Of a DNA stretch of 64,000 bases, positions 737 to 34,870 are shown in pieces. Both the position numbers and the translations under genes were made by a program. The first letter of the stretch is position 1, and every line of letters begins with the position of its first letter. This stretch comes from Aromatoleum toluvorans (GTDB lineage: Bacteria; Pseudomonadota; Gammaproteobacteria; Burkholderiales; Rhodocyclaceae), in the NCBI RefSeq assembly GCF_012910905.1, contig NZ_WTVN01000004.1, positions 62,001-126,000 of the forward strand, given 5' to 3'. Under the pieces are notes generated by a model. The model did not search any database, had not been told where the DNA came from, and worked only from the letters and a program-made list of their open reading frames with translations.

Positions 737-789
737 GCAATAATCGATGAATAACTGTAAATAGACTAAGCAATAGTAACCGTTACTAT
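737..789 (+). promoter_or_regulatory. Shared promoter/operator, copy A (amidohydrolase)
   Basis: Contains GCAATAATC (737-745), then seven variable bases, then AACTGTAAATAG (753-764), then TACTAT (784-789) as a likely -10 element. The same two blocks with the same 16-bp offset, and a hexamer at the same 31-bp distance, recur before the M19 gene and the ketosynthase gene. No good -35 hexamer is present, which suggests an activator-dependent promoter. A dyad AGTAAC-C-GTTACT (775-787) overlaps this copy's -10 and is not in the others. Confidence 0.6.
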
Positions 790-850
790 CTCTCCAGACA
801 AAGACGCCTTTGTCACACACCGAAACCCACACTGTCTGGAGAAGAAGACC

Positions 851-1537
851 ATGCAAAGCCAACTCAACGACATGCTCAAGCAAGCCTTTGCCGAAGCCAC
901 CAAGCTCTACCAGGAGCGCGGCTTCCAGCGCCGCGTGGGCTTTGGCAAGAAGCCGGCGCTGATCAACGTCGACCTTGCGAACGCCTGGACGCGCCCGGGC
1001 AACCCCTTCACCTGCGAGAAGATCGACGACGAGATCATCCCCGGCGTGCAGCGCCTGCTGAAGGCGTGCCGCGAGAACAACCACCCGGTGATCCACGTGA
1101 CGACCTGCTACCAGGTCACCGACCGCAACAATCCGAACACCGACATGGGCCTGTGGCACAACAAGATTCCGGTCGATGTCGTGAATCAGGAAGACGAGAA
1201 CATCTGGGCGATCGACTCGCGCATCGCGCCGATCGCCGGTGAGCAGGTGCTGGTCAAGAAGCGCGCGAGCTCCTTCCATGGCACCTACCTCGCGGGCTTC
1301 CTGCGCGCGGCCGGGGTCGACACCATCCTCGTGACCGGCGTGACCGCATCGGCCTGCGTGCGCACGACGCTGTGCGACGGCCTGGCCGAGGGTTTCCGCA
1401 CGATCGCCGTGCGCGAGTGCATCGGCGACCGCGTGCCCGGCGCAGTCGAGTGGAACCTGTTCGACATCGACGCCAAGTTCGCCGACGTGGAATCGGTCGA
1501 TCGCTGCGTCGATTACCTGTACTCGATGAAGGGCTGA
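851..1537 (+). CDS. Isochorismatase-family cysteine amidohydrolase (N-carbamoylsarcosine amidase-like)
   Basis: A 228-residue cytosolic hydrolase of the isochorismatase/nicotinamidase superfamily. The triad expected for amide-hydrolysing members is visible: Asp41 (NVDLANAW), a lysine in VLVKKRASSF (136 or 137), and the nucleophile Cys169 in GVTASACVRTT, preceded by the Val-Thr that forms the family's cis-peptide. The SACVRTT signature and overall length resemble N-carbamoylsarcosine amidases and maleamate amidases more than nicotinamidases. The likely reaction is hydrolysis of a small amide or carbamoyl group releasing ammonia; the substrate is unknown. GGAG lies just upstream of the ATG. The gene stands alone but shares its promoter signature with the M19 and ketosynthase genes, so it probably belongs to the same regulon. 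Confidence 0.85.
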   Translation: MQSQLNDMLKQAFAEATKLYQERGFQRRVGFGKKPALINVDLANAWTRPGNPFTCEKIDDEIIPGVQRLLKACRENNHPVIHVTTCYQVTDRNNPNTDMGLWHNKIPVDVVNQEDENIWAIDSRIAPIAGEQVLVKKRASSFHGTYLAGFLRAAGVDTILVTGVTASACVRTTLCDGLAEGFRTIAVRECIGDRVPGAVEWNLFDIDAKFADVESVDRCVDYLYSMKG

Positions 1538-1542
1538 TCGTG

Positions 1543-1570
1543 CGGGCGGGGGGCGTGGCGCCCCCGCCCG
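1543..1570 (+). terminator. GC-rich hairpin after the amidohydrolase
   Basis: CGGGCGGGGG (1543-1552) pairs perfectly with CCCCCGCCCG (1561-1570) just after the stop codon. There is no T-tract, so it may stabilise the 3' end rather than act as a full intrinsic terminator. Confidence 0.4.
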
Positions 1571-1696
1571 TCGCCGGCCCGTATGCCCCGAGCTTGTCCG
1601 TACGGGACCTCCGGTCGCGTTTTTTCGGTGATGAGTGGGCTGTACGGGGCGGTGCATGCAAATGTCTCAATGGTGTTCGGATAGTTCGCACGGATC

Positions 1697-1749
1697 GCAA
1701 TAATCACGACCGAACTGTAAATAGATGCGGAAATTGCTTCGACTAGGAT
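1697..1749 (+). promoter_or_regulatory. Shared promoter/operator, copy B (M19 gene)
   Basis: GCAATAATC (1697-1705), seven variable bases, AACTGTAAATAG (1713-1724) and TAGGAT (1744-1749). The offsets are identical to copies A and C. Similarity to copy C continues between the second block and the -10 (ATGC-GGAAAT-like sequence), so B and C are the closest pair. It lies 162 bp upstream of the chosen M19 start. The remainder of the 373-bp gap around it shows no gene. Confidence 0.6.
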
Positions 1750-1910
1750 TCGGGTCTGAGGAGGCGTCGGACGGGCGGTCTGCACAGACAATATCTCGCC
1801 CAAGCAGGCAGGCGCTCGGCTGCGATATCCCTTCAGTCTGAGCGTACAGGGTTCATTCAAGCCGCCATCGCCGTCCTGAGGTGCGAGGGCAAGAACGGGA
1901 GATCGGATGC

Positions 1911-2981
1911 ATGTCCGCAACAAACGGTTCCATCACTTCCATCGATACCCCGTTCCCCGGCGAAGGCGGCCTGACCGGCCATCATCCGCCTGCGGACCCG
2001 GGCGACGTGGCCGCGCAGCTGCACCGCGACGCAGTCGTGATTGACGGTCTGATCGTCGCGAAATGGGACCGCGATCTCTTCGAGGGCATGCGGCGAGGCG
2101 GCCTCACTGCGGCCAACTGCACGGTGTCGATCTGGGAAGGGCTGGGTGATACCGTGGACCAGATCGCGCAGATGAACGCGCTGATCGAAGCGAACGCCGA
2201 CTGCCTGCTGAAGGTGCACACGACCGCGGATATCGAGCGGGCCAAGCGTGAAGGCCGGACGGGGGTCATCCTCGGTTTCCAGAACGCGACGGCCTTCGAG
2301 GACCGCCTGGGATACGTGCAGATCTTCAAGGACCTCGGCGTCGGGGTCGTGCAACTGTGCTACAACACGCAGAACCTCGTCGGGACCGGCTGCTACGAAC
2401 GGGATGGCGGCTTGTCGGGATTCGGGCGCGAGATCCTCGCCGAAATGAACCGAGTGGGAATCCTTTGCGATCTGTCGCATGTCGGCCCGAATACTGCGCG
2501 CGAAGCAATAGCCGAATCGCGCAAGCCGGTTTGCTATTCGCATTGCCTGCCGAGCGGACTCAAGGATCATCCGCGAAACAAATCCGACGCCGAATTGAAA
2601 TTCATCGCGGACCATGGCGGCTTCGTCGGAGTGACGATGTTTACGCCATTCCTGAAAAATGGTGTGAATTCCACGGTTGACGACTACGTCGAGGCTATTC
2701 GCTATGTATTCGATCTAGTGGGCGAAGAGAATGTCGGCATCGGCACTGATTTTACGCAAGGCCATGACGCGGCTTTTTTTGCGCGCCTCGTTCATGACAA
2801 GGGCTATGCGCGCCGCCTGACCAATTTCGGCGAAATCGTCAATCCTCTTGGAATTCGCACTGTCGCAGAATATCCCAATCTGACCGCCGCTTTGCTGAAG
2901 GGCGGATTCACTCCGACGCAGGCGCGGCGGATCATGGGCGAAAACTGGCTGCGCGTGCTGAAGGACGTGTGGGGCGAATAA
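1911..2981 (+). CDS. M19 membrane-dipeptidase homologue with altered metal site
   Basis: A 356-residue member of the renal dipeptidase (M19, COG2355) TIM-barrel family. Recognisable parts are VVIDGLIVAKWD near residue 44, DLSHVGPNT (His190), YSHCLPSGLKDHPRN (His211) and GIGTDF (Asp280), which match conserved family positions. The family's DGHxD zinc motif is missing: residues 47-49 are LIV where His-x-Asp is expected. The bridging glutamate region reads GFQNATAFE, with Gln124. It may bind one metal or none, so dipeptidase activity should not be assumed. I chose the ATG preceded by GGGAG over an in-frame GTG 30 bp earlier. From about 2430 the third codon positions become visibly more AT-rich than in the first half. 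It probably belongs with the amidohydrolase and TRAP genes. Confidence 0.75.
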   Translation: MSATNGSITSIDTPFPGEGGLTGHHPPADPGDVAAQLHRDAVVIDGLIVAKWDRDLFEGMRRGGLTAANCTVSIWEGLGDTVDQIAQMNALIEANADCLLKVHTTADIERAKREGRTGVILGFQNATAFEDRLGYVQIFKDLGVGVVQLCYNTQNLVGTGCYERDGGLSGFGREILAEMNRVGILCDLSHVGPNTAREAIAESRKPVCYSHCLPSGLKDHPRNKSDAELKFIADHGGFVGVTMFTPFLKNGVNSTVDDYVEAIRYVFDLVGEENVGIGTDFTQGHDAAFFARLVHDKGYARRLTNFGEIVNPLGIRTVAEYPNLTAALLKGGFTPTQARRIMGENWLRVLKDVWGE

Positions 2982-3555
2982 GCGCGCTCGCGGTGCGGTT
3001 TTACCGCGTCCTATAATCTGGCGCGGCATCAGGTTGACGCAAGATTCCACTCTATATCAGCAACTTGCGTATTCAATAGACCTCGATCGTCCGTATCGTG
3101 CTATGCCTCGCATTTCAGGATGCCCGCAGGGATGATCTCGGGAGAATTCAAAAGATGGGTTGCACAGATGGAATGTGCGATATATCAATAACCCGGAATG
3201 GAGAAAATAGATAGACGACTAATGATGCAGCGCCCCAAAAGTAATCACAATAACTTCGATCTGCACTCGCATGGTGCAGGAGACAAAGACGATAGCCGCG
3301 AAACAAAAATAAGAACAGAAGAAAATAGACGATTCCGGGTTGTTTGGCCGTATATGAAGAATTTGTTCGCCGTTTTTAATCTGGCATTGTAATTGCTAGA
3401 AATTGTTTGCCAATTCATTTTATTCAATGATGGATCGTGCAGAGATGGTGCGTGCGAATTGCCCGCCATCAACGGTGACGAAGTCGATCGGGGGTCGTTC
3501 AATGAAACACGGTCTGACGTTCGTGGCTATTGGAATACCTAAGGAGAAAGTGACC
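2982..3555. other. AT-rich intergenic region
   Basis: About 570 bp with clearly lower GC than its surroundings. It holds only a weak 64-codon reading frame (3198-3392) lacking homology I recognise and without a convincing ribosome site. It probably carries the TRAP operon promoter. I found no copy of the A/B/C motif here. The composition suggests recombined or acquired DNA. Confidence 0.4.
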
Positions 3556-4578
3556 GTGAATATCTCGATGATGAAAAGGATCCTTGCCGCAGCAATGCTG
3601 GCGGTTGCAGGTGTCGCATCGGCGGCCGACACGATCGAGCTTAAGATGCACAGCCAGATCGTCGAATCCCGCCCGGAGGCGAAATATCTGCAGGAGTTCG
3701 CCAATGACGTGGCGGCGCGCTCGAACGGCCGCCTGAAAATCAACGTGTTCCACGCGGGCTCGCTGGGCCTGAAGGACACCGACCTGCTGCGCATCATGCA
3801 GGCCGGGGCGGTGGATATGGCGATGCTGTACGGGGAGTATTTCACGCGCGACGCCCCCGAGTTGGGCGTGGTCTACGTGCAGGGCGCCATCCGCACGCCC
3901 CAGCAGCACCTACAGCTGCTGCCGACAATGCGCACGATCTACGAGGAAGGTTACGCGAAGTGGCGCATCCATACCGTCGGCGGCGTCGTGAGCCCGGTGT
4001 TCAACGTCGGCGTGCACTGCAAGGAGCCGATCAACAATCTGTCCCAGCTTAAAGGGAAGAAGCTGCGCGTGTGGGGCAGCCACCTGGTGAGCACTTTCCA
4101 GGGGCTGGACGTGGCGGCGCAGGTCATTCCGCAGAACAGCATGTACATGGCCCTGCAGACCGGCGTGGTCGACTGCGCCTACTACCTGTCGACGGTGGCC
4201 AAGACGGTATCGCTGCAGGAAGTCGCGAAGTACGAGGCTTACCTGCACCCGTGGGCCGCCGTGCCGTGGATGTTCGGCGTGAGCGACAAGGCGTGGTCGC
4301 GCCTGCCCAAGGATCTGCAGGCGGTGCTTGTCCAAGCGGGTGAGGCGATGTGGGCCAAGACGCGCGAGGCAGCCGTCAGTCCGCAGCGCGAGAGCGCCGC
4401 CATCGAGGAACGCAAGGCGCTCGGCATCACCATGCTGCAGCCCTTCCCTGAGGGTGACGTGAGTGCTTTCGCAGCCGCATCCGACAAGGCCTGGGCGGAG
4501 ATGGCGAAATCGGCGGGCCCCAAGGGCACCGAGTACTACCAGCGAATGAAGGAGGCGATGGCGAAGCTGACGCCCTGA
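3556..4578 (+). CDS. dctP: TRAP transporter periplasmic solute-binding subunit (DctP family)
   Basis: A 340-residue extracytoplasmic binding protein of a tripartite ATP-independent periplasmic transporter. A Sec signal peptide (MMKRILAAAMLAVAGVASAAD) precedes the mature chain. The family pattern is visible: an early SRPEAKYLQEFANDVAARSNGRLK segment, the RVWGSHLVSTFQGLDV region where the carboxylate-binding Arg lies, and PQNSMYMALQTGVVD. It would capture an organic anion in the periplasm for the DctQM pair. The GTG start follows AAGGAG (3541-3546) by nine bases; an upstream extension to 3403 is unlikely. The substrate is unknown. Context with an amidohydrolase and a dipeptidase homologue hints at an amide-bearing carboxylate, which is inference only. 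Confidence 0.88.
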   Translation: MNISMMKRILAAAMLAVAGVASAADTIELKMHSQIVESRPEAKYLQEFANDVAARSNGRLKINVFHAGSLGLKDTDLLRIMQAGAVDMAMLYGEYFTRDAPELGVVYVQGAIRTPQQHLQLLPTMRTIYEEGYAKWRIHTVGGVVSPVFNVGVHCKEPINNLSQLKGKKLRVWGSHLVSTFQGLDVAAQVIPQNSMYMALQTGVVDCAYYLSTVAKTVSLQEVAKYEAYLHPWAAVPWMFGVSDKAWSRLPKDLQAVLVQAGEAMWAKTREAAVSPQRESAAIEERKALGITMLQPFPEGDVSAFAAASDKAWAEMAKSAGPKGTEYYQRMKEAMAKLTP

Positions 4579-4657
4579 GCGGTGTCGCCAGGGTGGCCGG
4601 CCAAGCTTCTGGCTGCGGCCGCCCCGATCGTTTTCGTACCTCTCGTTGGAGTCCAAG

Positions 4658-5185
4658 ATGCATTTTCTGATCCGCAGCCTGGAAAGGCTCGCACTTGGCA
4701 TGAACCGGCTCGCCGCCGTAGCCGCCGTGCTGATGAGCCTGTTCGTGTTCCTGGGCGTCGTGATGCGCTACTTCGTCGGCGCACCCTTTGCCTTCTCCGA
4801 TGAATTCATCGGCCTGCTGTTCGCCACGATGGCCTTCCTCGCGATGCCGCTGGGCCTCGTGACGCGCCGTCACATCATCCTCGACATCGTCACCCGCGGC
4901 CTGCAGGGGCCGCTGCGGCACTTCGTCGACATTGGCGCCACCGTGATCCTCGCGACTTTCTGCGTGTGGTTCCTCGCGCTCTCCTACGATTTCGCCGACT
5001 ACTCGCGCCTGCTCGATGCGCGCTCGGACATCGGCTCGATGCTGCTGTGGCCGTGGATGGGGATGCTGCCGCTGTGCACAGTGGTGATGGTGCTCGTCAG
5101 CCTCGGCCAGCTCTTCGACAGCCTTCGCCAGCTCACCGGCCGGCCTTCGCTGTTCTCCCTCGCGGGCGAGGAGGAAGTGCTATGA
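4658..5185 (+). CDS. dctQ: TRAP transporter small membrane subunit (DctQ family)
   Basis: A 175-residue inner-membrane protein with four predicted hydrophobic segments (roughly residues 20-40, 50-70, 90-110 and 135-155), matching the DctQ small permease subunit. FSDEFIGLLF and the RRHIILDIV region fit the family. It pairs with the large DctM subunit. The ATG is preceded by GGAG at 4648-4651, so I prefer it to the TTG twelve bases earlier. The stop codon overlaps the next start (ATGA), indicating translational coupling. It lies 79 bp after the binding-protein gene in one operon. Confidence 0.88.
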   Translation: MHFLIRSLERLALGMNRLAAVAAVLMSLFVFLGVVMRYFVGAPFAFSDEFIGLLFATMAFLAMPLGLVTRRHIILDIVTRGLQGPLRHFVDIGATVILATFCVWFLALSYDFADYSRLLDARSDIGSMLLWPWMGMLPLCTVVMVLVSLGQLFDSLRQLTGRPSLFSLAGEEEVL

Positions 5186-6471
5186 CCTTGGGCATCCTTT
5201 CGACCAGCATGCTCGTGCTGATGGTGACCGGCGCGGTGCTGGGCGCCGCGCTCGGGCTTACCGGCCTGATCCTGCTGCACTTTCAGGTGGGCGACGCGAG
5301 CTCGCTCGCGGTGCAGGCGGTGTGGAACACCTTTACCGACTTCACGCTGAGCGCGGTGCCGCTGTTCATCTTCCTCGGCGACATCCTGATGGCGAGCGGC
5401 ATCTCCGGGCGCATCTACAACGGCCTCACGCCGTTGTTCCATCGTTTCTCGGGCAAGCTGCTGCACACCAACATCGCGGTGTGCACGGTGTTCGGTGCGG
5501 TCAGCGGGTCGAGCTCGTCGACCGCAGCAGCGATCGGTTCGGTCGGCTACCCCGAACTGGTGAAGCGCGGCTACGACCCGGCGACCGTCATTGCCTCGCT
5601 CGCGGCCGGCGGCACGCTGGGCCTGCTGATCCCGCCCAGCCTGTCGCTGCTGATCTACGGCGCGACGCAGGACGTGTCGATCGGCAAGCTCTTCCTCGCC
5701 GGCATCGTACCGGGACTGCTCATCGCCGGCCTGTTCTCGGCCTACATCGCCGCCCTGTGCTACTTCCGCAGGGATCTTGCACCGAAGGAAGACGAACGGC
5801 CGAGCTGGGGCGAGATCCTCCACCGACTGCGCGGGATCTGGCCACTGCCCATCCTGATCTTCTTCGTGCTCGGCACGATCTACATGGGGCTCGCGACGAC
5901 CACCGAGGCCGCCGCGCTGGGCGTAGTCGCGGCGACGGTGCTGGGCTTCGTGTGGGGCGACCTGACGTTGTCGAAGCTGTGGCAGTCGTTCAAGACCTCG
6001 GTGCTGATGTTCGGCACGATCGCGATGGTGCTGCTCGGCACGCTGATTCTCGCGCAGGCGATCAGCGTCCTCGGACTGCCGAAGGAACTCGTCGACTGGG
6101 TCGCGAAGATGGGCCTGAGCCGCTACGAGGTGCTGTTCGCGATCGTGCTCGTGTATCTGGTGCTGGGCTGCTTCTTCGACGGCATCTCGCTGCTGCTGAT
6201 GACGCTACCGATCGCCTTCCCGCTGATGATGTCGATGCAGTTCGACCCGATCTGGTTCGGCATCGTCGTCACGATATTGATGGAAGTGGGCATGATCACG
6301 CCGCCGGTGGGGCTCAACCTCTTCGTGCTGGTGACGATCTCCAGGCGCAAGGTGAGCCTCGGCGAGGCGTCGTGGGCCACCGTGCCGTACTGGCTGATCA
6401 TGCTCGGGGTGATCGGGTTGTTCACGGCCTTCCCGGAGATCGTCACCTTCGTGCCCAGCCGGTTCTTCTGA
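5182..6471 (+). CDS. dctM: TRAP transporter large membrane subunit (DctM family)
   Basis: A 429-residue permease with about 12 hydrophobic segments, the normal length for DctM. Family signatures include FGAVSGSSSSTAAAIGSVGYPELVKRGYD, LAAGGTLGLLIPPSLSLLIYG and, near the end, GMITPPVGLNLFVL. It forms the Na+- or H+-coupled translocation channel of the TRAP system with the small subunit. The start overlaps the dctQ stop by four bases. The operon ends at a strong intrinsic terminator 22 bp downstream. No solute specificity can be read from the sequence. Confidence 0.92.
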   Translation: MTLGILSTSMLVLMVTGAVLGAALGLTGLILLHFQVGDASSLAVQAVWNTFTDFTLSAVPLFIFLGDILMASGISGRIYNGLTPLFHRFSGKLLHTNIAVCTVFGAVSGSSSSTAAAIGSVGYPELVKRGYDPATVIASLAAGGTLGLLIPPSLSLLIYGATQDVSIGKLFLAGIVPGLLIAGLFSAYIAALCYFRRDLAPKEDERPSWGEILHRLRGIWPLPILIFFVLGTIYMGLATTTEAAALGVVAATVLGFVWGDLTLSKLWQSFKTSVLMFGTIAMVLLGTLILAQAISVLGLPKELVDWVAKMGLSRYEVLFAIVLVYLVLGCFFDGISLLLMTLPIAFPLMMSMQFDPIWFGIVVTILMEVGMITPPVGLNLFVLVTISRRKVSLGEASWATVPYWLIMLGVIGLFTAFPEIVTFVPSRFF

Positions 6472-6492
6472 GTCCGGACGTCTTTCCCCCTT

Positions 6493-6532
6493 GGCGATCC
6501 GCGGGTTCTCCAGGCCCGTGGGTCGCCTTTTT
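6493..6532 (+). terminator. Intrinsic terminator of the TRAP operon
   Basis: A long stem (GGCGA...CGGG pairing with CCCG...TCGCC) is followed directly by five T residues. It lies between the convergent TRAP and LysR genes. Confidence 0.8.
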
Positions 6533-6616
6533 CGTGCAGCGGCTGCGCGAGACTACTATTGTGCCCTGCGCCAACACTAGCAGCGCAAGCAGCAACAGTC
6601 GTGCGGTGCGGCGACG

Positions 6617-7534
6617 TTATTCTCGTGCTTCGTTCGCGATGCCGAATTCCTCGGCGTTGTCGTGCAGGAATTTGGCGAATCGGTCCACGGTGGGCGTCGG
6701 AATGTCCTTTCGCCAGCACACCAGCGTCTCCATGGGCTTTTGCCGGCCCGCCAGCGGGCGAATCACGAGGCCCTTGCGCTGGATGTTCTCTGCGCAGCGC
6801 GCATACAGCGCCACCCCGATGTTCGCGGCGACCAGCCCGAAGATGCCGTCGCTGGTCGAGGCCTCCTGCGCTACGGAGGGCGAGAAGTTCGCGGCGTGGC
6901 ACAGCGCGAAGAAATGTGTGCGGAAGGTCTCCCACGAGTCTTGCGAGCCGAGGATGAACTTCTCGTTGGCGAGATCGCGGATCGAGATGGAGGGCTTGTT
7001 GACGAGCGGATGCGCGGCCGGCAGCAGCACGACCAGGTCCTCGCGCGCGATCATGAGCTGGCTCACCGAGGGCGACTCGAAGGGTCCGATCAGGAAGCCG
7101 ATGTCGATGCGCGATTCGAGCAAGGCCTCCTTCTGTTTCGAGCTCGGGAAGTGAAACAGCTCGACCTTGATGCCCGGATGGGTGTGCAGGAACTTCTCGA
7201 TGATCATCGGCAGCTTGCCGTTGATCGCAAAGTCCATGTACGCGATGCGCAGGTAGCCCACCTTGCCGTCGGCGGCCGCCTGCGCGAGCAGCGACGCCTT
7301 CTCGATGTGCCCGAGCGCGAGACGGCATTCGTACAGGAAGGTGCGACCCGCCTCGGTAAGCTGCACGACGCGCGTGGTGCGCGAGAGCAGCTCCGCGCCG
7401 ACGGCCTCCTCGAGGTGCTGGATCGTGCGCGTTAGCGCCGACTGCGTCATGTGCAGGCGCTCGGCGGCGGGGCGAAACTGCAGCTCCTCGGCAACCGCGA
7501 TGAAGGCGCGCATGTGGCGGATTTCGAAGCGCAT
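6617..7534 (-). CDS. LysR-type transcriptional regulator
   Basis: A 305-residue LysR-family protein. The N-terminal winged helix-turn-helix is at residues 1-60 (AEELQFRPAAERLHMTQSALTRTIQHLEE), followed by the linker helix and a two-lobed effector domain. It is divergent from the ketosynthase gene, whose promoter carries copy C of the shared motif. The same motif lies before the amidohydrolase and M19 genes. LysR proteins usually regulate the divergent gene and related loci, so this protein is the leading candidate to bind all three sites. The effector is probably the TRAP substrate or a breakdown product (inference). Confidence 0.9.
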   Translation of the reverse strand: MRFEIRHMRAFIAVAEELQFRPAAERLHMTQSALTRTIQHLEEAVGAELLSRTTRVVQLTEAGRTFLYECRLALGHIEKASLLAQAAADGKVGYLRIAYMDFAINGKLPMIIEKFLHTHPGIKVELFHFPSSKQKEALLESRIDIGFLIGPFESPSVSQLMIAREDLVVLLPAAHPLVNKPSISIRDLANEKFILGSQDSWETFRTHFFALCHAANFSPSVAQEASTSDGIFGLVAANIGVALYARCAENIQRKGLVIRPLAGRQKPMETLVCWRKDIPTPTVDRFAKFLHDNAEEFGIANEARE

Positions 7535-7574
7535 GGGAGGACGGACTCCAGTGAGAGAATAATGATCGTGAAAG

Positions 7575-7627
7575 GCAATAATCTACCACTAACTGTAAAT
7601 AATGCAGGAAATAGTGTCGATTAGGAT
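7575..7627 (+). promoter_or_regulatory. Shared promoter/operator, copy C (LysR/ketosynthase gap)
   Basis: GCAATAATC (7575-7583), seven variable bases, AACTGTAAATA (7591-7601) and TAGGAT (7622-7627). The spacing is identical to copies A and B. It lies in the 152-bp divergent region between the LysR gene and the ketosynthase gene, the classical place for a LysR activation site, and points toward the ketosynthase. Confidence 0.65.
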
Positions 7628-7686: not shown

Positions 7687-9000
7687 ATGGCTGGAGCAGT
7701 TGGGGGGAGGGGGGCGCTGCGGCGCGTGGTCGTGACGGGGTGGGGGCTTGCGACCCCGCTCGGCGTCGGCGTCGAGCGCACGTGGGCGCGCCTGCTGGCG
7801 GGCGAGTCGGGCATCCGTGCGATCGACCGCTTCGACGTCGCCGATTTGCCCTCGCGTATCGCCGGACTGCTGCCCGAAGGCGCCCATGCCGACGGGGGCT
7901 TCGACGCCGACGAATGGGTGCCGCCCAAGGACCAGCGCAAGATGGACCGCTTCGCGATGTACGCGCTATGTGCGGCCCAACAGGCGCTCGAGGATGCGGA
8001 CTGGCAGCCGGCGACGCAGCACGCGCGTGAGCGGACCGGCGTGCTGATCGGCTCGGGCATCGGTGGCCTGCCCGCACTCGCCGAAGGCGCCCTGACCCTT
8101 GAACACAAGGGCGCACGACGCATCTCGCCCTTCTTCATCCCGTCCGCGCTCGTGAACCTCGCGGCGGGCCAGGTCGGAATCCGCCATGGCCTGCTGGGGC
8201 CGACTCACGGTGTGGCGACCGCCTGCGCGAGTGGTGCGCACGCGATCGGCGACGCCGCGCGCATGGTGATGCTGGGTGACGCCGACGTGATGGTGGCGGG
8301 CGGCACCGAGGGCGCCGTGTCGCGCCTGGGCATCGCCGGATTCTGTGCCGCGCGAGCCCTGTCGACCGGCTTCAACGACACGCCGCAGGCCGCCTCCCGC
8401 CCGTGGGATGCCGCGCGCGACGGTTTCGTGATCGGCGAGGGCAGCGGCATCGTCGTGCTGGAGGAGTACGAGCACGCGCGGGCGCGCGGCGCACGCATCC
8501 ACGCCGAGGTGCTGGGTTACGGACTGTCCGGCGACGGCTACCACATCGCTGCGCCGCCCGAGGACGGCAGCGGCGCCCGGCGCGCAATGCGTGCCGCACT
8601 GGCCTGGGCGGGCGTTGCCCCGGAGGAAGTGGACTACGTGAACGCCCACGCGACCTCGACGCCGCTCGGCGACCTGGTCGAACTGCGTGCGCTGTGCGAG
8701 ATCTTCGGTGGTCACGCCACGCGCGGTGGAGAGGGTGGACTGTCGGTGTCCTCGACCAAGTCGGCGATGGGGCATCTGCTCGGCGCGGCGGGGGCAGTCG
8801 AGGCCATCGTATGCATGCTCGCACTGCGCGACCAGATCGTGCCGCCAACGCTCAATCTCGCCGAACCGCCGGCGGAATTCGTCGGCATGGACTTCGTGCC
8901 CGGCGTTGCCCGGCGCCGTACCGTGCGCACTGCGCTGTCGAACTCCTTCGGTTTTGGCGGGACCAACGCGGCGCTGCTCTTCGGCGCCGTCAACGACTGA
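7687..9000 (+). CDS. Stand-alone beta-ketoacyl-ACP synthase II-like (FabF/KAS family)
   Basis: A 437-residue thiolase-fold ketosynthase. The catalytic Cys-His-His triad of the KAS I/II class is complete: Cys180 in VATACASGAHAIG, His321 in VNAHATSTPLGD and His363 in TKSAMGHLLGAAG. The C-terminal glycine-rich SNSFGFGGTNAALLF is also present. The enzyme would condense malonyl-ACP with an acyl primer. No acyl carrier protein, malonyltransferase or reductase gene is nearby. It is divergent from a LysR regulator and carries the same promoter signature as an amidohydrolase gene. It is therefore probably a dedicated, inducible paralogue and not the housekeeping fabF. An alternative is a role in making a modified acyl chain for transport or signalling. 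Confidence 0.85.
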   Translation: MAGAVGGRGALRRVVVTGWGLATPLGVGVERTWARLLAGESGIRAIDRFDVADLPSRIAGLLPEGAHADGGFDADEWVPPKDQRKMDRFAMYALCAAQQALEDADWQPATQHARERTGVLIGSGIGGLPALAEGALTLEHKGARRISPFFIPSALVNLAAGQVGIRHGLLGPTHGVATACASGAHAIGDAARMVMLGDADVMVAGGTEGAVSRLGIAGFCAARALSTGFNDTPQAASRPWDAARDGFVIGEGSGIVVLEEYEHARARGARIHAEVLGYGLSGDGYHIAAPPEDGSGARRAMRAALAWAGVAPEEVDYVNAHATSTPLGDLVELRALCEIFGGHATRGGEGGLSVSSTKSAMGHLLGAAGAVEAIVCMLALRDQIVPPTLNLAEPPAEFVGMDFVPGVARRRTVRTALSNSFGFGGTNAALLFGAVND

Positions 9001-9746: not shown

Positions 9747-11600
9747 TTGAAACCGACCGACATCAGCAATCCCGGCTACCTGCACAAGGTCGTCGACTGT
9801 CAGTGGGCCTGTCCGGCCCACACGCCCGTGCCCGAGTACATCCGGCAGATTGCCGCGGGCGACTTCTCGGCTGCGTACATGCTCAACTGGCAGTCGAACG
9901 TGTTCCCCGGCATCCTCGGGAGGGTCTGCGACCGTCCGTGCGAGCCGGCCTGTCGGCGCGGACGGGTCGATGCCGAGCCGGTCGCGATCTGCCGCCTCAA
10001 GCGCGTCGCCGCCGACTTCAAGGACGACATCCGTGATCGTCTGCCGAAGCCGCCCGCGAAGAAGAACGGCAAGCGCATCGCGTGCATCGGCGGCGGGCCG
10101 GCTTCGCTGACCGTGGCGCGCGACCTCGCGGTGCAGGGCTATCAGGTCACGGTGTTCGACAGCGGATCGTCGCCCGGCGGCATGATGCGCAGCCAGATTC
10201 CCAAGTTCCGCCTGCCCGACAGCGTCATCGACGAGGAGTGCGGCTATGTCGAGGAGCTCGGGGTCGAGCTGCGCCGCAACCACTGGATCGGTAGCCTGCG
10301 CGAAGTGCTCGCCGGCGACTGGGATGCCGTGTTCGTCGGCACCGGCGCGCCGCGCGGGCGGGATGCCAACCTGCCGGGGCGCAACCAGGCCGCGGCGCAC
10401 GTCCACATCGGCATCGACTGGCTCGCGAACGTCGCCTTCGGCCACGTCACCGCGATCGGCAAGCGGGTGATCGTGCTCGGCGGCGGCAATACCGCGATGG
10501 ACTGTTGCCGCTCGGCGCGGCGCCTGGGCGGCGAGGACGTGCGGGTGGTGGTGCGCAGCGGCTTCGAGGAGATGAAGGCCTCGCCGTGGGAGAAGGAGGA
10601 TGCCCTTCACGAGGGGATCCCCATCCACAACTATCTCGTGCAGAAGGCCTTCACGCACGCCAACGGGCGCCTCACGGGCGTGCTGTTCGAGAAGGTGCGC
10701 GCCGAATACGACGACCAGGGCCGCCGCTCGCTGGTGCCGACGGGTGAGCCGGACGTGCATATGGAATGCGACGACGTGCTGATCGCGATCGGCCAGGAGA
10801 ACGCCTTCCCGTGGATCGAGCGTGACATCGGCGTCGAGTTCGACCGCTCGGGCATGCCGGTGCTGGACACGCAGACGCTGCAATCGACGCTGCCGCGCGT
10901 GTTCTTCGGCGGCGATGCGGCGCTCGGGCCGAAGAACATCATCACTGCAGTGGCGCAGGGCCACGAGGCGGCGATCTCGATCGACCTCTTCTGCCGCGGG
11001 CTGCCGCTCACGCAGCGCCCCGCACCGACGATGAACCTCGTGAGCCAGAAGATGGGCATTCACGAGTGGAGCTACGACAACAAGGTGTCGGAAGAGGCGC
11101 GCCGCAAGGTGCCGGTGAAGGCGATCGAGGAGGCGCTGAAGGACATCAAGTCCGAGTTCGAGCTCGGCTACGACTTCAAGCTCGCCTGCGCCGAGACGGC
11201 CCGCTGCCTCAACTGCGACGTCGCCACGGTGTTCAAGCCGAAGCTGTGCATCGAGTGCGACGCCTGTGTCGACATCTGCCCGACCGAGTGCATCACCTTC
11301 ACGCAGAACGGCGAGGACGAGGACTTGCGCGGGCGACTGAAGGCCCCGGCGAAGAATCGCGACCAGGCCCTGTATCTCGCCGAAGGGCTCAAGACCGGCC
11401 GGGTGATGGTCAAGGACGAGAACGTCTGCCTGCACTGCGGCATGTGTGCCGAGCGCTGCCCGACGGGTGCATGGGACATGCAGAAATTCGAGTTGAACCT
11501 CGCGTACGCCGGCGAAGCCGTCGAATCCCCACGCTCAGTTTGTTCGCTGTCCCCCGCGGGGGCGAAGGCCTCCCCCGGGGCGGCCGTAAGGGAGGCCTGA
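9747..11600 (+). CDS. korC: 2-oxoglutarate oxidoreductase, FAD/NAD(P)-binding iron-sulfur subunit
   Basis: A 617-residue electron-transfer subunit resembling the glutamate synthase small subunit fused to a ferredoxin. The N-terminal region has the cysteine cluster VCDRPCEPACRRG. A GxGxxG-like FAD motif follows (CIGGGPASLTVARDLAVQGY), then a second dinucleotide site (VLGGGNTAMDCCR). The C-terminus has two 4Fe-4S motifs (CIECDACVDICP and CLHCGMCAERCP). It would move electrons from the KorAB core to NADP. From memory, the Azoarcus evansii enzyme has this three-subunit makeup and supports benzoyl-CoA reduction. No other start exists in frame, so a TTG start preceded by AGGAAGG (9734-9740) is forced. 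The last 25 or so residues are encoded by a palindromic element and look non-native. Confidence 0.85.
   Translation: MKPTDISNPGYLHKVVDCQWACPAHTPVPEYIRQIAAGDFSAAYMLNWQSNVFPGILGRVCDRPCEPACRRGRVDAEPVAICRLKRVAADFKDDIRDRLPKPPAKKNGKRIACIGGGPASLTVARDLAVQGYQVTVFDSGSSPGGMMRSQIPKFRLPDSVIDEECGYVEELGVELRRNHWIGSLREVLAGDWDAVFVGTGAPRGRDANLPGRNQAAAHVHIGIDWLANVAFGHVTAIGKRVIVLGGGNTAMDCCRSARRLGGEDVRVVVRSGFEEMKASPWEKEDALHEGIPIHNYLVQKAFTHANGRLTGVLFEKVRAEYDDQGRRSLVPTGEPDVHMECDDVLIAIGQENAFPWIERDIGVEFDRSGMPVLDTQTLQSTLPRVFFGGDAALGPKNIITAVAQGHEAAISIDLFCRGLPLTQRPAPTMNLVSQKMGIHEWSYDNKVSEEARRKVPVKAIEEALKDIKSEFELGYDFKLACAETARCLNCDVATVFKPKLCIECDACVDICPTECITFTQNGEDEDLRGRLKAPAKNRDQALYLAEGLKTGRVMVKDENVCLHCGMCAERCPTGAWDMQKFELNLAYAGEAVESPRSVCSLSPAGAKASPGAAVREA
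11535..11600 (+). repeat. Palindromic element at the korC 3' end
   Basis: Contains the palindrome CCCCCGCGGGGG (11551-11562) and a 9-bp inverted repeat, AGGCCTCCC (11566-11574) with GGGAGGCCT (11590-11598). It supplies the last codons and stop of korC and the AAGGGAGG that serves as korA's ribosome site. It looks like a small inserted or REP-like element; no second copy was noticed in the window. Confidence 0.45.
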
Positions 11601-11606
11601 TCGACC

Positions 11607-13463
11607 ATGACAACACCAGCAATCCAGCACTGCAACGACTTCGTGATCAAGTTCGCGAACGTCAACGGCTCGGGCTCCGCCTCGGCGAACGAACTCTTTG
11701 CGCGTGCGATCATCCGCATGGGCGTGCCGGTGGCCCCGCGCAACATCTTCCCGTCCAACATCCAGGGCCTGCCCACGTGGTACGAGGTGCGCGTGTCCGA
11801 AGCCGGCTGGCTCGGCGCGCGCGGCGGCTGCGACATGATGGTCGCAATGAATCCGCAGACCTGGGACCGTGACGTCGCCGCGATCGATCCGGGCGGCTAT
11901 CTCTTCTACGACTCGACCAAACCGCTGCCGCCGTCGAAGTTCCGCGACGACATCACCGTGCTGGGCATTCCGCTCACCGCGATGTGCAACGCCGAGTACG
12001 AGGACGCGCGCCAGCGCCAGCTGTTCAAGAACATCATGTACGTCGGTGCGCTGATGGCACTGCTCGACATGGAGTTCGCCGCGGCCGAGCAGCTTCTCGT
12101 CGACCGCTACCGCGGCAAGGACCAGCTCATCAAGGCCAACGTCAATGCGCTGCGCCTCGGCTACGACTACGCGAAGCAGCACCTGCCGTGCCCGATCGGG
12201 CTCACGGTGAAGCGCGCCGACGCGGTCGGCGACCGCATCATGATCGACGGCAACAGCGCCTGCGGCCTCGGCGCCGTGTTCGGCGGGGCGACCGTCGCGG
12301 GCTGGTATCCGATCACGCCCTCGACCTCGGTCATCGAAGCCTTCTCGAGCTACTGCCGCAAGTTCCGCACCGACCCGGACAACGGCCGTGCGCGCTACGC
12401 GATCGTGCAGGCCGAGGACGAGCTCGCGTCGATCGGCATGGTGATCGGCGCCGGCTGGAACGGCGCGCGCGCCTTCACCGCGACCTCCGGCCCGGGCATC
12501 TCGCTGATGCAGGAGTTCTTCGGCCTGGCGTATTTCGCCGAGATCCCCGCGGTGATCGTCGACGTGCAGCGCGGCAGCCCCTCGACCGGCATGCCGACGC
12601 GCACGCAGCAGTCGGATCTGTTGTCCTGCGCCTACGCCTCGCACGGCGACACGCGCCATGTGCTGCTGTTCCCGCAGGACGCGTACGAGTGCTTCAGCCT
12701 CACCGCGCAGGCCTTCGATCTCGCCGAGCGCCTGCAGACGCCGGTGTTCGTGCTCTCCGACCTCGACATCGGCATGAACGAGCAGCTGTGCGCGCCCTTC
12801 GACTGGGACGACAGCCGGCGCTACGACCGCGGCAAGCTCATGAGCTATGACGAGCTCGAAGCGGGCAAGGACTTCGGCCGTTACCTCGACGTCGACGGCG
12901 ACGGCATCCCGTACCGCACGATTCCCGGCACCCACCCGACCAAGGGCGCGTACTTCACGCGCGGCACGACGCGCAACCCGTACGCGAAGTACAGCGAGAC
13001 CGGTGCGGACTACGTGTACAACATGGAGCGCCTGCGCCGGAAGTTCAACACGGCGAAGGACCTCGTGCCCGCACCGATCCTGAAGAAGGCGGAGCAGCCC
13101 ACGCACGTGGGGGTCATCTACTACGGCTCCACGGCGCCCGCGATGGCCGAGGCCGGCGCGCTGCTCGCGGCCGACGGCATCCACGTCGACACGCTGCGCG
13201 TGCGCGGCTTCCCGTTCAGCGACACGGTGATGCAGTTCATCGCCGAGCGCGACGCGGTGTTCGTCGTCGAACAGAACGAGAGCGCGCAGTTGCGCTCGCT
13301 GCTGATCAACGAAGGCGAAATCGATCCGAAGAAGCTCGTGCGCGTGCTGCACTACGACGGCTCGCCGATCACCGCGCGCTTCATCGCCGGCAAGATCGCC
13401 GACGCCCTGAGCGACCGCAAGGTGAGCCCCATCGGACAACCCCAGCGCAAGGTGGCCTCATGA
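11607..13463 (+). CDS. korA: 2-oxoglutarate:acceptor oxidoreductase, fused gamma-alpha subunit
   Basis: A 618-residue fusion of the gamma and alpha domains of 2-oxoacid:ferredoxin oxidoreductases. Residues 1 to about 190 form the gamma domain (KFANVNGSGSASANELFARAI, then NIFPSNIQGLPTWYEVRVS). The alpha pyrimidine-binding domain follows (ACGLGAVFGGATVAGWYPITPST; QAEDELASIGMVIGAGWNG; ATSGPGISLMQEF). With KorB it binds thiamine diphosphate and oxidatively decarboxylates the 2-oxoacid to the acyl-CoA. The related name indolepyruvate oxidoreductase is less likely because a dedicated FAD/NADP subunit is encoded next door. It begins six bases after korC, overlaps korB by four bases, and is clearly in the same operon. 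Confidence 0.87.
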   Translation: MTTPAIQHCNDFVIKFANVNGSGSASANELFARAIIRMGVPVAPRNIFPSNIQGLPTWYEVRVSEAGWLGARGGCDMMVAMNPQTWDRDVAAIDPGGYLFYDSTKPLPPSKFRDDITVLGIPLTAMCNAEYEDARQRQLFKNIMYVGALMALLDMEFAAAEQLLVDRYRGKDQLIKANVNALRLGYDYAKQHLPCPIGLTVKRADAVGDRIMIDGNSACGLGAVFGGATVAGWYPITPSTSVIEAFSSYCRKFRTDPDNGRARYAIVQAEDELASIGMVIGAGWNGARAFTATSGPGISLMQEFFGLAYFAEIPAVIVDVQRGSPSTGMPTRTQQSDLLSCAYASHGDTRHVLLFPQDAYECFSLTAQAFDLAERLQTPVFVLSDLDIGMNEQLCAPFDWDDSRRYDRGKLMSYDELEAGKDFGRYLDVDGDGIPYRTIPGTHPTKGAYFTRGTTRNPYAKYSETGADYVYNMERLRRKFNTAKDLVPAPILKKAEQPTHVGVIYYGSTAPAMAEAGALLAADGIHVDTLRVRGFPFSDTVMQFIAERDAVFVVEQNESAQLRSLLINEGEIDPKKLVRVLHYDGSPITARFIAGKIADALSDRKVSPIGQPQRKVAS

Positions 13464-14515
13464 CCTATCTCGCCAAACCCAAGCTCCTCGCGGCCGACGC
13501 GCCGCGCAACGCGCTCGGCTACACCCGCCGCGACTACGAGGGCGCGATCTCGACGCTGTGCGCCGGTTGCGGCCACGACTCGATCAGCGCGTCCGTGGTG
13601 CAGGCCTGCTTCGACCTCGACATCGAACCGCACAAGGTCGCCAAGCTCTCGGGCATCGGCTGCTCGTCGAAGACGCCCGACTACTTCCTCGGCAACTCGC
13701 ACGGCTTCAACTCGGTGCACGGACGCATGCCTTCGGTGCTCACCGGCGCGGCACTGGCGAACCGCAACCTGCTGTACCTCGGCGTGTCGGGCGACGGCGA
13801 CTCGGCCTCGATCGGCATCGGCCAGTTCGCGCACGCGATGCGCCGCGGCGTGAACATGACCTACATCGTCGAGAACAACGGCGTGTATGGCCTTACCAAG
13901 GGGCAGTTCTCGGCGACCGCCGACAAGGGCTCGAAGAGCAAGAAGGGCGTGGTCAACCGCGACAACCCGATCGACCTCGCGACGCTGGCGCTGCAACTCG
14001 GCGCCACCTATGTCGCCCGCAGCTTCTCCGGCGACAAGGAACAGCTCGTGCCGCTCATCAAGGGTGCGCTGCGCCACGGCGGGCCGGCCTTCATCGACGT
14101 CATCAGCCCGTGCGTAACCTTCAACAACCACGCCGGCTCGACAAAGAGCTACGACTACGTGCGCGAGCACAACGCCGCAGTGAACCGCGTCGACGTGATC
14201 CTGCCCAAGGCGCAGATCGAGGCGTCCTACCCGCCGGGCAGCCTGCGCCGCGTCGTGCAGCACGACGGCTCGATCCTGCACCTGCGCAAGGTGAGCGTCG
14301 ACTACGATCCGGCGGATCGCATCGGCGCGATGAACTACCTGCAGGAGCGCCAGGCGCTGGGCGAGATCGTGACGGGCTTGCTGTATGTCGACAGCAGCGG
14401 CCAGGACATGCATGCCAACCTCAACACCGTCGAGAAGGCGCTGAACCAGCTCGGCGACGCCTACCTGTGCCCGGGCAGCAAGGCGCTGGAGGCGCTCAAC
14501 GCGACGCTGCGCTGA
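13460..14515 (+). CDS. korB: 2-oxoglutarate:acceptor oxidoreductase, thiamine-diphosphate beta subunit
   Basis: A 351-residue beta subunit. It carries the iron-sulfur and thiamine-diphosphate signatures of the family: STLCAGCGHDSISA near residue 31, GIGCSSKTPDYF, and the ThDP motif GDGDSASIGIGQ followed by IVENNGVYGLTKGQ. These bind the cofactor's diphosphate through magnesium. The gene overlaps korA by four bases (ATGA), so translation is probably coupled. Together with korC and korA it forms a complete complex with no separate ferredoxin gene, consistent with direct NADP reduction. A hairpin follows the stop. Confidence 0.88.
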   Translation: MTYLAKPKLLAADAPRNALGYTRRDYEGAISTLCAGCGHDSISASVVQACFDLDIEPHKVAKLSGIGCSSKTPDYFLGNSHGFNSVHGRMPSVLTGAALANRNLLYLGVSGDGDSASIGIGQFAHAMRRGVNMTYIVENNGVYGLTKGQFSATADKGSKSKKGVVNRDNPIDLATLALQLGATYVARSFSGDKEQLVPLIKGALRHGGPAFIDVISPCVTFNNHAGSTKSYDYVREHNAAVNRVDVILPKAQIEASYPPGSLRRVVQHDGSILHLRKVSVDYDPADRIGAMNYLQERQALGEIVTGLLYVDSSGQDMHANLNTVEKALNQLGDAYLCPGSKALEALNATLR

Positions 14516-16179: not shown

Positions 16180-16935
16180 TCAGCTGGCCAGCGCGGCTTC
16201 GAGGTCGAGCTCTTCGGGACGCCCGCGCGAAAGATCGAGGCAGGCTTCCACGTGTTCGAGGTGCTCGGTCATCAGGCGGATCGCGGTCGCTTCGTCGCGA
16301 TCGGCCAGCGCCTGGGTGATCTCGGAATGCTCCTGGTCGCGGCAGGCGGGCACCGAAGGGGCGTCGTACAGGAAGATGATCAGGCAGGTGAGCGACGCCA
16401 GTTCGTGCATCAGGCGCGCGGTCAGCGCGTTGCCGGAGAGTTCCGCGAGCAGGATGTGGTATTCGCCGGAGAGGCGGATGATCGCGCGGCGATCCCGCGC
16501 GGCGCGGGCGGCTTCCTCGGCTTCGACGTGGGCGCGTAGGCGCGCGATGATCGCCGGGTCCTTCTTCGCGATGATGCGTCGCACGACGAGGGCTTCGAGG
16601 GGGCGGCGCACCTCGAAAACCTCGCGTGCGTCCTCCACGGTGGGCTCGGCGACAAAGGCGCCGCGGTTGGGGTGCAGCACTACCACGCGCTCGAGCGCGA
16701 GCCGCGCGAGCACCTGGCGCACGCGCGCGCGGCTCGCGCCGAAGATATTCGCCAGCTTGTCCTCGCCGAGCTTGGTGCCCGGCGGCAGCCGGTGTTCCAT
16801 GATCGACGTGATGATCCGCTCGTAGATTTCCAGGTCCGACGCGCCGCCTTCGCCATCGTTGGCCGGCCGCTCGTCCTGCAAGGGGGCCGGCGACGATGCG
16901 CGGACGCTGCGCCGTTTGACCGTCTTCGTCTGCAT
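16180..16935 (-). CDS. GntR-family (FCD) transcriptional regulator
   Basis: A 251-residue regulator with an N-terminal GntR winged helix (IYERIITSIMEHRLPPGTKL and IFGASRARVRQVLARL). This is followed by an all-helical FCD effector domain (REVFEVRRPLEALVVRRI, then the His/Asp metal-ligand pattern through AELSGNALTARLMHEL and ATAIRLMTEHLEHVE). I chose the start at MQTKTVKRR, since the longer frame lacks family similarity. It is divergent from the FMN-dependent hydroxyacid oxidase, the usual partner of LldR/GlcC-type FCD regulators, and probably represses that gene in response to a hydroxyacid. A degraded paralogue lies beside it, converging on its 3' end. Confidence 0.85.
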   Translation of the reverse strand: MQTKTVKRRSVRASSPAPLQDERPANDGEGGASDLEIYERIITSIMEHRLPPGTKLGEDKLANIFGASRARVRQVLARLALERVVVLHPNRGAFVAEPTVEDAREVFEVRRPLEALVVRRIIAKKDPAIIARLRAHVEAEEAARAARDRRAIIRLSGEYHILLAELSGNALTARLMHELASLTCLIIFLYDAPSVPACRDQEHSEITQALADRDEATAIRLMTEHLEHVEACLDLSRGRPEELDLEAALAS

Positions 16936-17388
16936 CCTGTCGATCTGCACCAGAGGGCGCCCGCAAGGCCGGGCCGGAACCTGAATTTTACGATTCGCGC
17001 CGACGCAGCCGCAAGAAAGGGGTGCGACGTGTCGGCATTTGCCATGCGTCGTTGCGCGAGCGAGATGCCATCGCCGGACTGCGCAAGGCGGCCGGACTGT
17101 CCCGCATGGGAATTTCGGGCGATGGGCGGGTTCTTGCATGTCGAAAAATACAGATAAATTGTCAACAAAATTGATGTTTATATTGGACGGATGGGGTCCC
17201 CGCGAGAGCGGCGTTCAAGCCCGTCGGCCAGGCGGCGCGAGGGCTGCCGGCACGCCCGAAGAGCGAGCGCAAGCTGATGCGGGAAGGCTAGGGCACACGC
17301 AGGCGGTCCGTATCATGATGGACGGCTAGCAAGCGAAGTCCGCCTCCGGTATCGTGGGGCGGTTTTTTTGCTTGGGGCCGGGCGCCCG
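16936..17388. other. GntR/oxidase divergent control region
   Basis: About 450 bp with no convincing gene. It includes an AT-rich patch (17145-17185) with TTGTCAACAA (17159-17168), a near-palindrome of the TTGTnnACAA type bound by FCD regulators, next to TATATT (17179-17184). A 170-nt GC-rich stretch follows and ends at an intrinsic terminator just before the oxidase gene. Confidence 0.45.
17340..17369 (+). terminator. Terminator or attenuator before the oxidase gene
   Basis: CCGCCTC (17340-17346) pairs with GGGGCGG (17356-17362), with one T-G pair, and is followed by seven T residues (17363-17369). It ends only 20 bp before the oxidase start codon on the same strand, so upstream transcripts must be stopped or conditionally read through here. 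Confidence 0.65.
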
Positions 17389-33907: not shown

Positions 33908-34870
33908 ATGACCACCAAAAAATTCGCCTCGCAGGCCGACCTCGAGGAAAAGAAGATCAGCTGGGACAAGCTCTCCGACAACGCCTGGGCCTACACCGCC
34001 GAGGGCGACCCCAATACCGGCGTGATCATCGGCGACGACGGCGTGATGATCATCGACGCGACCGCGACCCCCGTTGCTGCGCAGGGCGTGATCGCCAAGG
34101 TGCGCGAGATCACCGACAAGCCGATCAAGTACGTCGTGCTGACGCACTACCACGCCGTGCGCGTGCTCGGCGCCTCGGGCTACAAGGACGAGGGCCTGCA
34201 GCAGATCATCGCCAGCCGCGACACGTACGACCTGATCGTCGAGCGCGGCCAGCAGGACATGGATTCCGAGATCGGCCGCTTCCCGCGCCTCTTCCAGGCG
34301 GTCGAGAGCGTGCCGGGCCTCACCTGGCCGACGCTGACCTTCGAGGGCGAGATGACCCTGTGGATGGGCAAGCTCGAAGTGAAGATCAAGCAGGTCGGCC
34401 GCGGCCACACGAAGGGCGACACCATCGTCTATCTGCCGTCGCAGAACATCTGCTTCTCCGGCGACCTCGTCGAAGCCGACGCCGCCTGCTACACCGGCGA
34501 CGCCTATCTCGCCGATTGGCCGCAGACCCTCGACAACCTCGCCGCGATGAAATTCGACACGCTCGTCCCGGGGCGCGGCCCCGCGCTGATCGGGCGCGAG
34601 GCGGTCGATGCCGGCCTCGCCTACACGCGCGATTTCGTCTCCACGCTGTACCGCAGCGCGCAGGAAGCGGTCGCGCAGGGTTTCGACCTGAAGGCGACGA
34701 TGGCGCACACCCGCAAGAACATGGACCCGAAGTTCGGCCAGGTCTTCATCTACGAGCACTGCCTGCCCTTCGACGTGACGCGTGCGCACGACGAGGCGAG
34801 CGGCATCCGCGATCCGCGTATCTGGACCGCCGAGCGCGACCAGCAGATGTGGCATTCGCTGCAGGAATGA
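33908..34870 (+). CDS. Metallo-beta-lactamase-fold protein with incomplete second metal site
   Basis: A 320-residue MBL-fold protein at the head of the aromatic operon. Instead of the usual HxHxDH it reads LTHYHAVRVLG: His80 and His82 are kept, but Asp and His are replaced by Val84 and Arg85. His167 (GRGHTKGD) and Asp186 (FSGDLV) are kept, while the final metal histidine position is Arg223 (PGRGPALIG in place of PGHGP). A single-zinc enzyme is therefore predicted. Its chemistry is unknown; hydrolysis of an ester or thioester intermediate of the ring-degradation pathway is possible. It is 160 bp upstream of the hydroxylase on the same strand. Confidence 0.8.
   Translation: MTTKKFASQADLEEKKISWDKLSDNAWAYTAEGDPNTGVIIGDDGVMIIDATATPVAAQGVIAKVREITDKPIKYVVLTHYHAVRVLGASGYKDEGLQQIIASRDTYDLIVERGQQDMDSEIGRFPRLFQAVESVPGLTWPTLTFEGEMTLWMGKLEVKIKQVGRGHTKGDTIVYLPSQNICFSGDLVEADAACYTGDAYLADWPQTLDNLAAMKFDTLVPGRGPALIGREAVDAGLAYTRDFVSTLYRSAQEAVAQGFDLKATMAHTRKNMDPKFGQVFIYEHCLPFDVTRAHDEASGIRDPRIWTAERDQQMWHSLQE

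Follow-up and report, generated by a model that had tools for sequence, protein, structure and literature searches.

A repeated two-block promoter architecture in an Aromatoleum N-methylhydantoin cluster is the probable operator of a LysR-type activator

Five promoters within one 23-kb gene cluster of the Aromatoleum genome share a two-block architecture that is very probably the operator–promoter of a pathway-specific LysR-type activator, predicted from sequence and encoded on the minus strand at 6617-7534. The promoters precede two intact copies and one internally deleted copy of the N-carbamoylsarcosine amidohydrolase (CSHase) gene, an M19 hydrolase gene and a FabF-type ketosynthase gene, and the cluster would lead from N-methylhydantoin to sarcosine. 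A LysR-controlled regulon had been proposed in the first-pass annotation; that reading is supported by a clean genome scan, by co-occurrence across the genus, by a site adjacent to LysR in 8/8 motif-bearing genomes and by word pairs recurring in other proteobacterial classes.

Results

Three promoters in the window share two blocks and a -10 box

The window, which is the whole 64-kb stretch analysed here, corresponds to C62:62001-126000 of a genome of 4,797,596 bases in 117 contigs. An exact search located GCAATAATC-N7-AACTGTAAATA at 737-763, 1697-1723 and 7575-7601, all on the plus strand, confirming the three sites and the 16-bp step between their blocks that had been described. These are the sole three matches in the window at up to three mismatches, and none appeared in 100 dinucleotide shuffles. 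A -10-like hexamer (TACTAT at 784, TAGGAT at 1744 and TAGGAT at 7622) follows 31 bp past the start of block 2 at each of the three sites, again as first noted. The elements of the three promoters and the regulator gene are as follows.

721-744, plus: imperfect dyad of the CSHase promoter, putative LysR recognition (regulatory) site, with ATWAT at -16 to -12 and GCAATAAT at 0 to 7 conserved over 23 sites
737-745, plus: block 1 of the CSHase promoter, containing the downstream half of the dyad
753-763, plus: block 2 of the CSHase promoter, AACTGTAAATA, putative activation site over the -35 position
784-789, plus: -10-like TACTAT of the CSHase promoter
1681-1704, plus: putative LysR dyad of the M19 promoter (block 1, 1697-1705)
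1713-1723, plus: block 2 of the M19 promoter
1744-1749, plus: -10-like TAGGAT of the M19 promoter
6617-7534, minus: LysR-type regulator, the likely activator (HTH_1 and LysR_substrate domains; nearest solved relative BenM)
7559-7582, plus: putative LysR dyad in the gap between LysR and the ketosynthase gene (block 1, 7575-7583)
7591-7601, plus: block 2 of the ketosynthase promoter
7622-7627, plus: -10-like TAGGAT of the ketosynthase promoter

The genome holds five sites, all in one cluster

In the whole genome, five matches at ≤3 mismatches lie on one strand of C62, from 46857 to 69601, and a reversed-pattern control gave none. The three window sites are thus real, but the genome total is five, all within 23 kb; the two others sit outside the window, 7 and 15 kb upstream, before further CSHase copies, which is the kind of additional match before related genes that had been looked for. 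Sites 46857, 54759 and 62737 each precede a CSHase copy, that behind site 46857 being an 80-aa remnant with an in-frame internal deletion. No site of their own was found for HyuAB in this genome. The genome-wide scan called for in the first-pass annotation was run with R1, a sequence-only model for which seven other genomes, but not this one, supplied 18 sites. Its matches were precisely the five sites (E 2.8e-14 to 1.2e-10), all in the 23-kb cluster with no scattered matches, although the 18 sites had themselves been collected with the window consensus, so that this hold-out is not fully independent. The next match, at E 5.3, is noise. Chance origin of the sites is ruled out by the shuffles, the reversed-pattern control and the R1 scan.

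The surrounding genes point to N-methylhydantoin use

The genes of the window that bear on the pathway and its control, apart from LysR, are listed below.

851-1537, plus: N-carbamoylsarcosine amidohydrolase (CSHase), isochorismatase fold (PF00857; best solved relative 1nba)
1911-2981, plus: M19-family hydrolase of the membrane-dipeptidase family (PF01244; best solved relative 2i5g, 'amidohydrolase', E 1.2e-167)
3382-3397, plus: sigma-54-type -24/-12 promoter candidate before the TRAP genes, outside the LysR motif
3556-4578, plus: TRAP transporter DctP (profile matches)
4658-5185, plus: TRAP transporter DctQ (by position and conservation alone; no NCBIfam match)
5182-6471, plus: TRAP transporter DctM (profile matches)
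7687-9000, plus: FabF-type beta-ketoacyl-ACP synthase paralogue (TIGR03150 fabF, 579 bits, cut-off 493.75)

By whole-chain homology, 851-1537 is an N-carbamoylsarcosine amidohydrolase: it matches the solved CSHase 1nba at E 1.2e-71 over residues 3-225 of 228, and its NCBIfam matches (biuret amidohydrolase, RutB and others) fall far under their cut-offs. The earlier label 'amidohydrolase' is thereby corrected to an isochorismatase-fold CSHase. Upstream of the window there are two HyuA/HyuB sets, between which the two proteins are 98% and 95% identical; homology identifies these as subunits of an ATP-dependent N-methylhydantoinase, the nearest solved relative of the second set (C62:56-60 kb) being N-methylhydantoinase 7hk5 (E 2.7e-202 and 2.3e-176). 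Porin genes, like CSHase, HyuA and HyuB, are duplicated within the cluster, which also carries two NCS1 permeases that are 29% identical to one another; for the one that was compared, the nearest relative is Mhp1, a hydantoin permease. Further upstream are a creatininase-family gene (C62:34213-34938) and a creatinase gene (C62:42324-43574, nearest 1chm). N-methylhydantoin is a product of creatinine. The R1 scan gave no site at either of these two genes, so the motif marks the N-methylhydantoin branch. The steps from N-methylhydantoin through N-carbamoylsarcosine to sarcosine are known (PMC4417704), and from its gene content the cluster would carry out this conversion. The targets, which the first-pass annotation considered not otherwise grouped, all belong to this one cluster.

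The sigma-54-type candidate is the sole match in the window, where 0.09 were expected and 9 of 100 shuffles had one. G014 has it at an equal distance, and HyuA in G000 and G011 is preceded by a similar one; in the mapped stretches it is absent from the other 4/6 DctP and 5/7 HyuA copies. A second, nitrogen-responsive layer of control acting through such a promoter is possible.

The predicted layout of the sites fits a LysR-type operator

Over 23 sites from the genus, numbered from the start of block 1, conservation is concentrated in ATWAT (-16 to -12), GCAATAAT (0-7), AAYTGTAAATA (16-26), CAATAGT (34-40) and TAGTAT/TAGGAT (47-52). Block 2 and the hexamer are 31 bp apart in 20/23 sites, 33 bp in two (including 54759 of this genome) and 32 bp in one. 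Among 39 upstream offsets, the best match to the reverse complement of block 1 falls at -16 (4.3/7 positions against a mean of 1.79), and this offset is still the best after dereplication to 16 sites. Block 1 accordingly forms the downstream half of a putative, imperfect dyad, the weaker upstream half of which had been overlooked. Its symmetry is weak in single sites, with 4-5/7 positions in the three window sites by hand count and a mean of 4.3/7 over the 23. The arms are 7 bp long with a 10-bp gap, and the dyad is not a strict T-N11-A, the textbook dyad spacing for LysR-type operators. Counted from the predicted start (assumed 7 nt past the -10 box), the dyad centre lies at about -64 and block 2 at about -43 to -33, in agreement with the earlier placement of the second block over the -35 position. 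At a 17-bp spacer, the -35 hexamers read by eye are ATAGAC, ATAGAT and ATAATG, unlike TTGACA. In LysR-type operators the recognition element generally lies near -65 and another element near -35 (PMC5603801), a layout that the imperfect dyad near the predicted -64 and the block over -35 would fit.

Motif, LysR and CSHase co-occur in the genus

The product of 6617-7534 answers to the definition of a LysR-type regulator, with predicted HTH_1 (PF00126, residues 5-64) and substrate-binding (PF03466, residues 89-293) domains. At ≤3 mismatches the motif occurs in 8 of 17 genus genomes, this one included (reversed control, 0), and the same eight carry LysR (E≤1e-60; 89-99% identical to the copy here) and CSHase (E≤1e-30); at these cut-offs both proteins are absent from all nine motif-less genomes. 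Taken alone this co-occurrence is weak evidence, because cluster, LysR and sites are linked and come and go together. In the eight motif genomes, the fetched stretches contain 23 sites at ≤4 mismatches, of which 14 precede CSHase (13 intact genes and one remnant), six the ketosynthase, two M19 and one HyuA. All 13 intact CSHase genes found in these genomes have a site, three of them at 4 mismatches. The LysR start codon is 37-50 bp from a site in 8/8 motif genomes, so the site at 7575 in the divergent gap of LysR, pointed out in the first-pass annotation, has a counterpart in each of the others. The divergent neighbour is the ketosynthase gene in six of these genomes and CSHase in two, and the site therefore goes with LysR whatever gene follows. 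One 3-mismatch match, G007:C1:4964197, lies far from the cluster.

Binding of the motif by a different regulator encoded nearby, for instance the second LysR (C62:45819-46778) or the GntR protein (16180-17139), is quite improbable. The second LysR gene does end 78 bp ahead of motif C62:46857, but it is oriented toward that motif and not away from it, and (at E≤1e-80) it is present in 5/17 genus genomes, namely 3/8 with the motif and 2/9 without, a distribution on which it was rejected as the regulator. A highly improbable reading makes the block pair an unusual core promoter for an alternative sigma factor instead of an operator. The distance from the blocks to the -10 box is indeed fixed in 20/23 sites, but a sigma factor is usually expected to serve scattered genes, and R1 finds only five copies genome-wide, in one cluster beside LysR; moreover, the -10 box looks sigma-70-like and block 1 seems too far upstream to be part of a core promoter. 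We find it barely credible that duplication of DNA simply multiplied the sites and that they lack a common regulatory role: several genes of the cluster are duplicated and three of the five sites precede CSHase copies, so the five are not all of independent origin and the three CSHase promoters are plausibly paralogous, but the window blocks are exact whereas a 140-bp stretch is just 32-39% identical outside blocks and hexamers, so the window sites are no recent duplicated stretch and duplication was rejected as the sole cause, and the sites are kept across eight species, mostly at 0-3 mismatches (maximum 4).

Related loci in other proteobacteria are partly conserved

The arrangement expected under the reading we prefer, control by the LysR at 6617-7534, can be followed in part beyond the genus. 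A search with the eight LysR orthologues yielded 55 loci, of which 49 entered the cross-class count after Aromatoleum/Azoarcus L054-L057 and the weak relatives L107 and L108 had been dropped; six of these had no usable CSHase upstream, leaving 43. LysR is divergent from CSHase, with start codons ≤197 bp apart, in 33/43 loci (L103 was scored non-divergent solely because its LysR match begins late), and is not divergent in eight Caballeronia/Paraburkholderia-type loci. The LysR–CSHase pair is found in Alpha- and Betaproteobacteria and in one gammaproteobacterial MAG (L080), and many of the loci have HyuAB, M19 or transporter (TRAP or ABC) genes nearby.

When gapped words were counted de novo in the 36 CSHase upstreams of a dereplicated set, the counts were 12 for GCAT-N1-AATC, 12 for AATT-N1-ATAT and 9 for GCAT-N13-ATTG, against a highest word-pair count of 6 in 20 shuffled sets. 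From GCAT to ATTG the start-to-start step is 17, equal to that from GCAA to AYTG in Aromatoleum, and the block order is the same. With a consensus picked after viewing the sequences, ATTGATG-N10-CATCAAT was found at ≤3 mismatches in 22/43 upstreams versus 1.7% of shuffles, and among gaps of 4 to 15 bp its 10-bp gap gave the most matches. When palindromes were sought in these other classes with no sequence set beforehand, the 10-bp gap did not stand out, at z 2.0 compared with 4.5 at gap 0 and 4.1 at gap 7. The Aromatoleum matrix scored z ≥4 in 11/43 CSHase and 1/4 HyuA upstreams, with many low values, and never above 2.2 in 22 M19, 4 DctP and 2 ketosynthase upstreams.

Within the family, 199 genomes were scanned, including this one and five motif-less genus members. 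The motif was found in this genome and, as one 2-mismatch match each, in two others, versus one control match, which puts it at chance level outside the genus; among the candidates scored, at most 11 per genome, LysR at E≤1e-70 was limited to this genome and one 42% relative.

Discussion

We infer the following course of activation. A LysR oligomer would sit on the imperfect dyad ATWAT...GCAATAAT, centred at about -64 of the predicted start, and also on block 2, AAYTGTAAATA, which would cover the -35 position (about -43 to -33). With a pathway compound bound, LysR would then bring RNA polymerase to the -10 box that follows at 31 bp and, as that compound accumulates, switch on CSHase, the M19 hydrolase and the ketosynthase. 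This would provide a regulator, an operator and a target list, open to testing, for a nitrogen-scavenging pathway. Should N-methylhydantoin, N-carbamoylsarcosine or creatinine prove to be the inducer, LysR and the short promoter could be made into a sensor for a class of compounds measured in the clinic.

Among the targets, the ketosynthase stands out as the odd one. By profile score it is FabF-type, over the fabF equivalog cut-off, and its copies in the eight motif genomes are 82-100% identical (82-96% in the other seven). A second FabF copy, presumably the housekeeping enzyme, is present in all 17 genus genomes and is merely 51-54% identical to the cluster ketosynthase; copies at 70-71% are found close to CSHase in two loci, one from Caballeronia and the other from Paraburkholderia. 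We know of no role for an extra ketosynthase in such a cluster and of no precedent linking creatinine-derived nitrogen to acyl-chain synthesis. A speculative proposal, doubtful at this stage, makes LysR a dedicated sensor of N-methylhydantoin or N-carbamoylsarcosine use across several proteobacterial classes. In Aromatoleum it would, under this proposal, also control a second FabF-type ketosynthase that has a genuine function in the pathway or in how the cell responds to it, and Caballeronia and Paraburkholderia would offer partial parallels. An extra ketosynthase tied to a catabolic regulon is unexpected and, were the proposal true, it would link creatinine-derived nitrogen to acyl-chain synthesis.

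The mode of control proposed here is known and ordinary. BenM, CatM and AlsR are among the LysR-type activators with regulatory and activation binding sites. Operators of the PnpM/PnpR type likewise share with the present system the HTH_1 and LysR_substrate domains of the regulator, a site beside its gene, elements that here are predicted to lie near -65 and -35, and catabolic targets (PMC5603801), whereas the ATWAT/GCAATAAT half-sites and the dyad geometry are specific here. The pairing of LysR with this pathway found no earlier description in the literature searched: among the matches listed, which came largely from outside subscription journals, there was no LysR-type control of an N-methylhydantoin pathway, and a search of similar coverage for work joining creatinine, N-carbamoylsarcosine and LysR found none.

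Other regulators are known at neighbouring steps. SouR and GbdR belong to the AraC family. They govern the catabolism of sarcosine, the product of the present pathway, in Pseudomonas aeruginosa (as cited in PMC8864220), and thus represent other regulators acting on a later step. In Corynebacterium glutamicum, AmtR regulates the creatine/creatinine genes crnA, creT, cshA and hyuB (PMC8864220) and so likewise controls CSHase and hydantoinase genes, but it is a TetR-family central nitrogen repressor, whereas the candidate regulator here is of LysR type and adjoins its genes. The Clostridium pathway of N-methylhydantoin amidohydrolase and CSHase (PMC4417704) comprises the same steps, with a two-subunit hydantoinase and CSHase; its regulation is not described there, and the Aromatoleum cluster adds to it the M19, TRAP and ketosynthase genes.

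Sigma-54-type promoter candidates and the CSHase leader

Upstream of DctP, the first TRAP transporter gene, lies a candidate promoter of the -24/-12 type:
window 3382-3397, + strand: sigma-54-type candidate TGGCATTGTAATTGCT, 174 bp upstream of DctP
The same candidate occurs in genus genome G014, and HyuA, an N-methylhydantoinase subunit gene, is preceded at 52-53 bp by TGGCATTGCAATTGCT, also of sigma-54 type, in G000 and G011. Across the mapped stretches, such candidates were found at two of the six DctP copies and two of the seven HyuA copies. These predicted promoters suggest that the uptake and hydantoinase genes may be under nitrogen (RpoN) control.

G+C content falls to 40-48% at window 3000-3600, between the M19 and TRAP genes (flanks, 53-65%), and a similarly low stretch (44-48%) lies upstream of HyuA in the own-contig stretch L006 (11350-12250). 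Sigma-54-type candidates were found in both.

The leader of the N-carbamoylsarcosine amidohydrolase (CSHase) gene (window 791-842) contains a perfect 10-nt inverted repeat, the 3′ arm of which holds the likely Shine-Dalgarno sequence GGAG. When leaders were folded singly, a hairpin was predicted in five of six, with z < -2 in three. A consensus stem was obtained across 14 CSHase leaders; one pair was altered on both sides, and there was no net covariation gain. Translational control through the predicted hairpin is possible.

Ketosynthase, duplicated genes and neighbouring loci

Within the genus, the second FabF-type ketosynthase (window 7687-9000) is found only in the eight genomes carrying the regulon. 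Its neighbours, which adjoin it in G011 too, lack the two-block putative LysR operator-promoter motif:
window 9747-14515: GltA-like flavoprotein with ferredoxin-like matches, and 2-oxoacid oxidoreductase subunits

At 48-62 kb of the contig (L006/L007), CSHase, HyuA, HyuB and the gene for a Tsx-like porin are duplicated, with copies 91-98% identical; the two NCS1 permeases there share only 29% identity. A shortened CSHase gene retains the promoter motif and is a sign of recombination between duplicated copies:
contig 46973-47215 (L006 10973-11215): CSHase remnant, 80 aa, internal in-frame deletion

Last, a further locus lies near the cluster:
contig 34213-43574: creatininase-family gene and creatinase gene, separated by transporter genes
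The motif was not found at these creatininase-family and creatinase genes, which are a parallel route to sarcosine.
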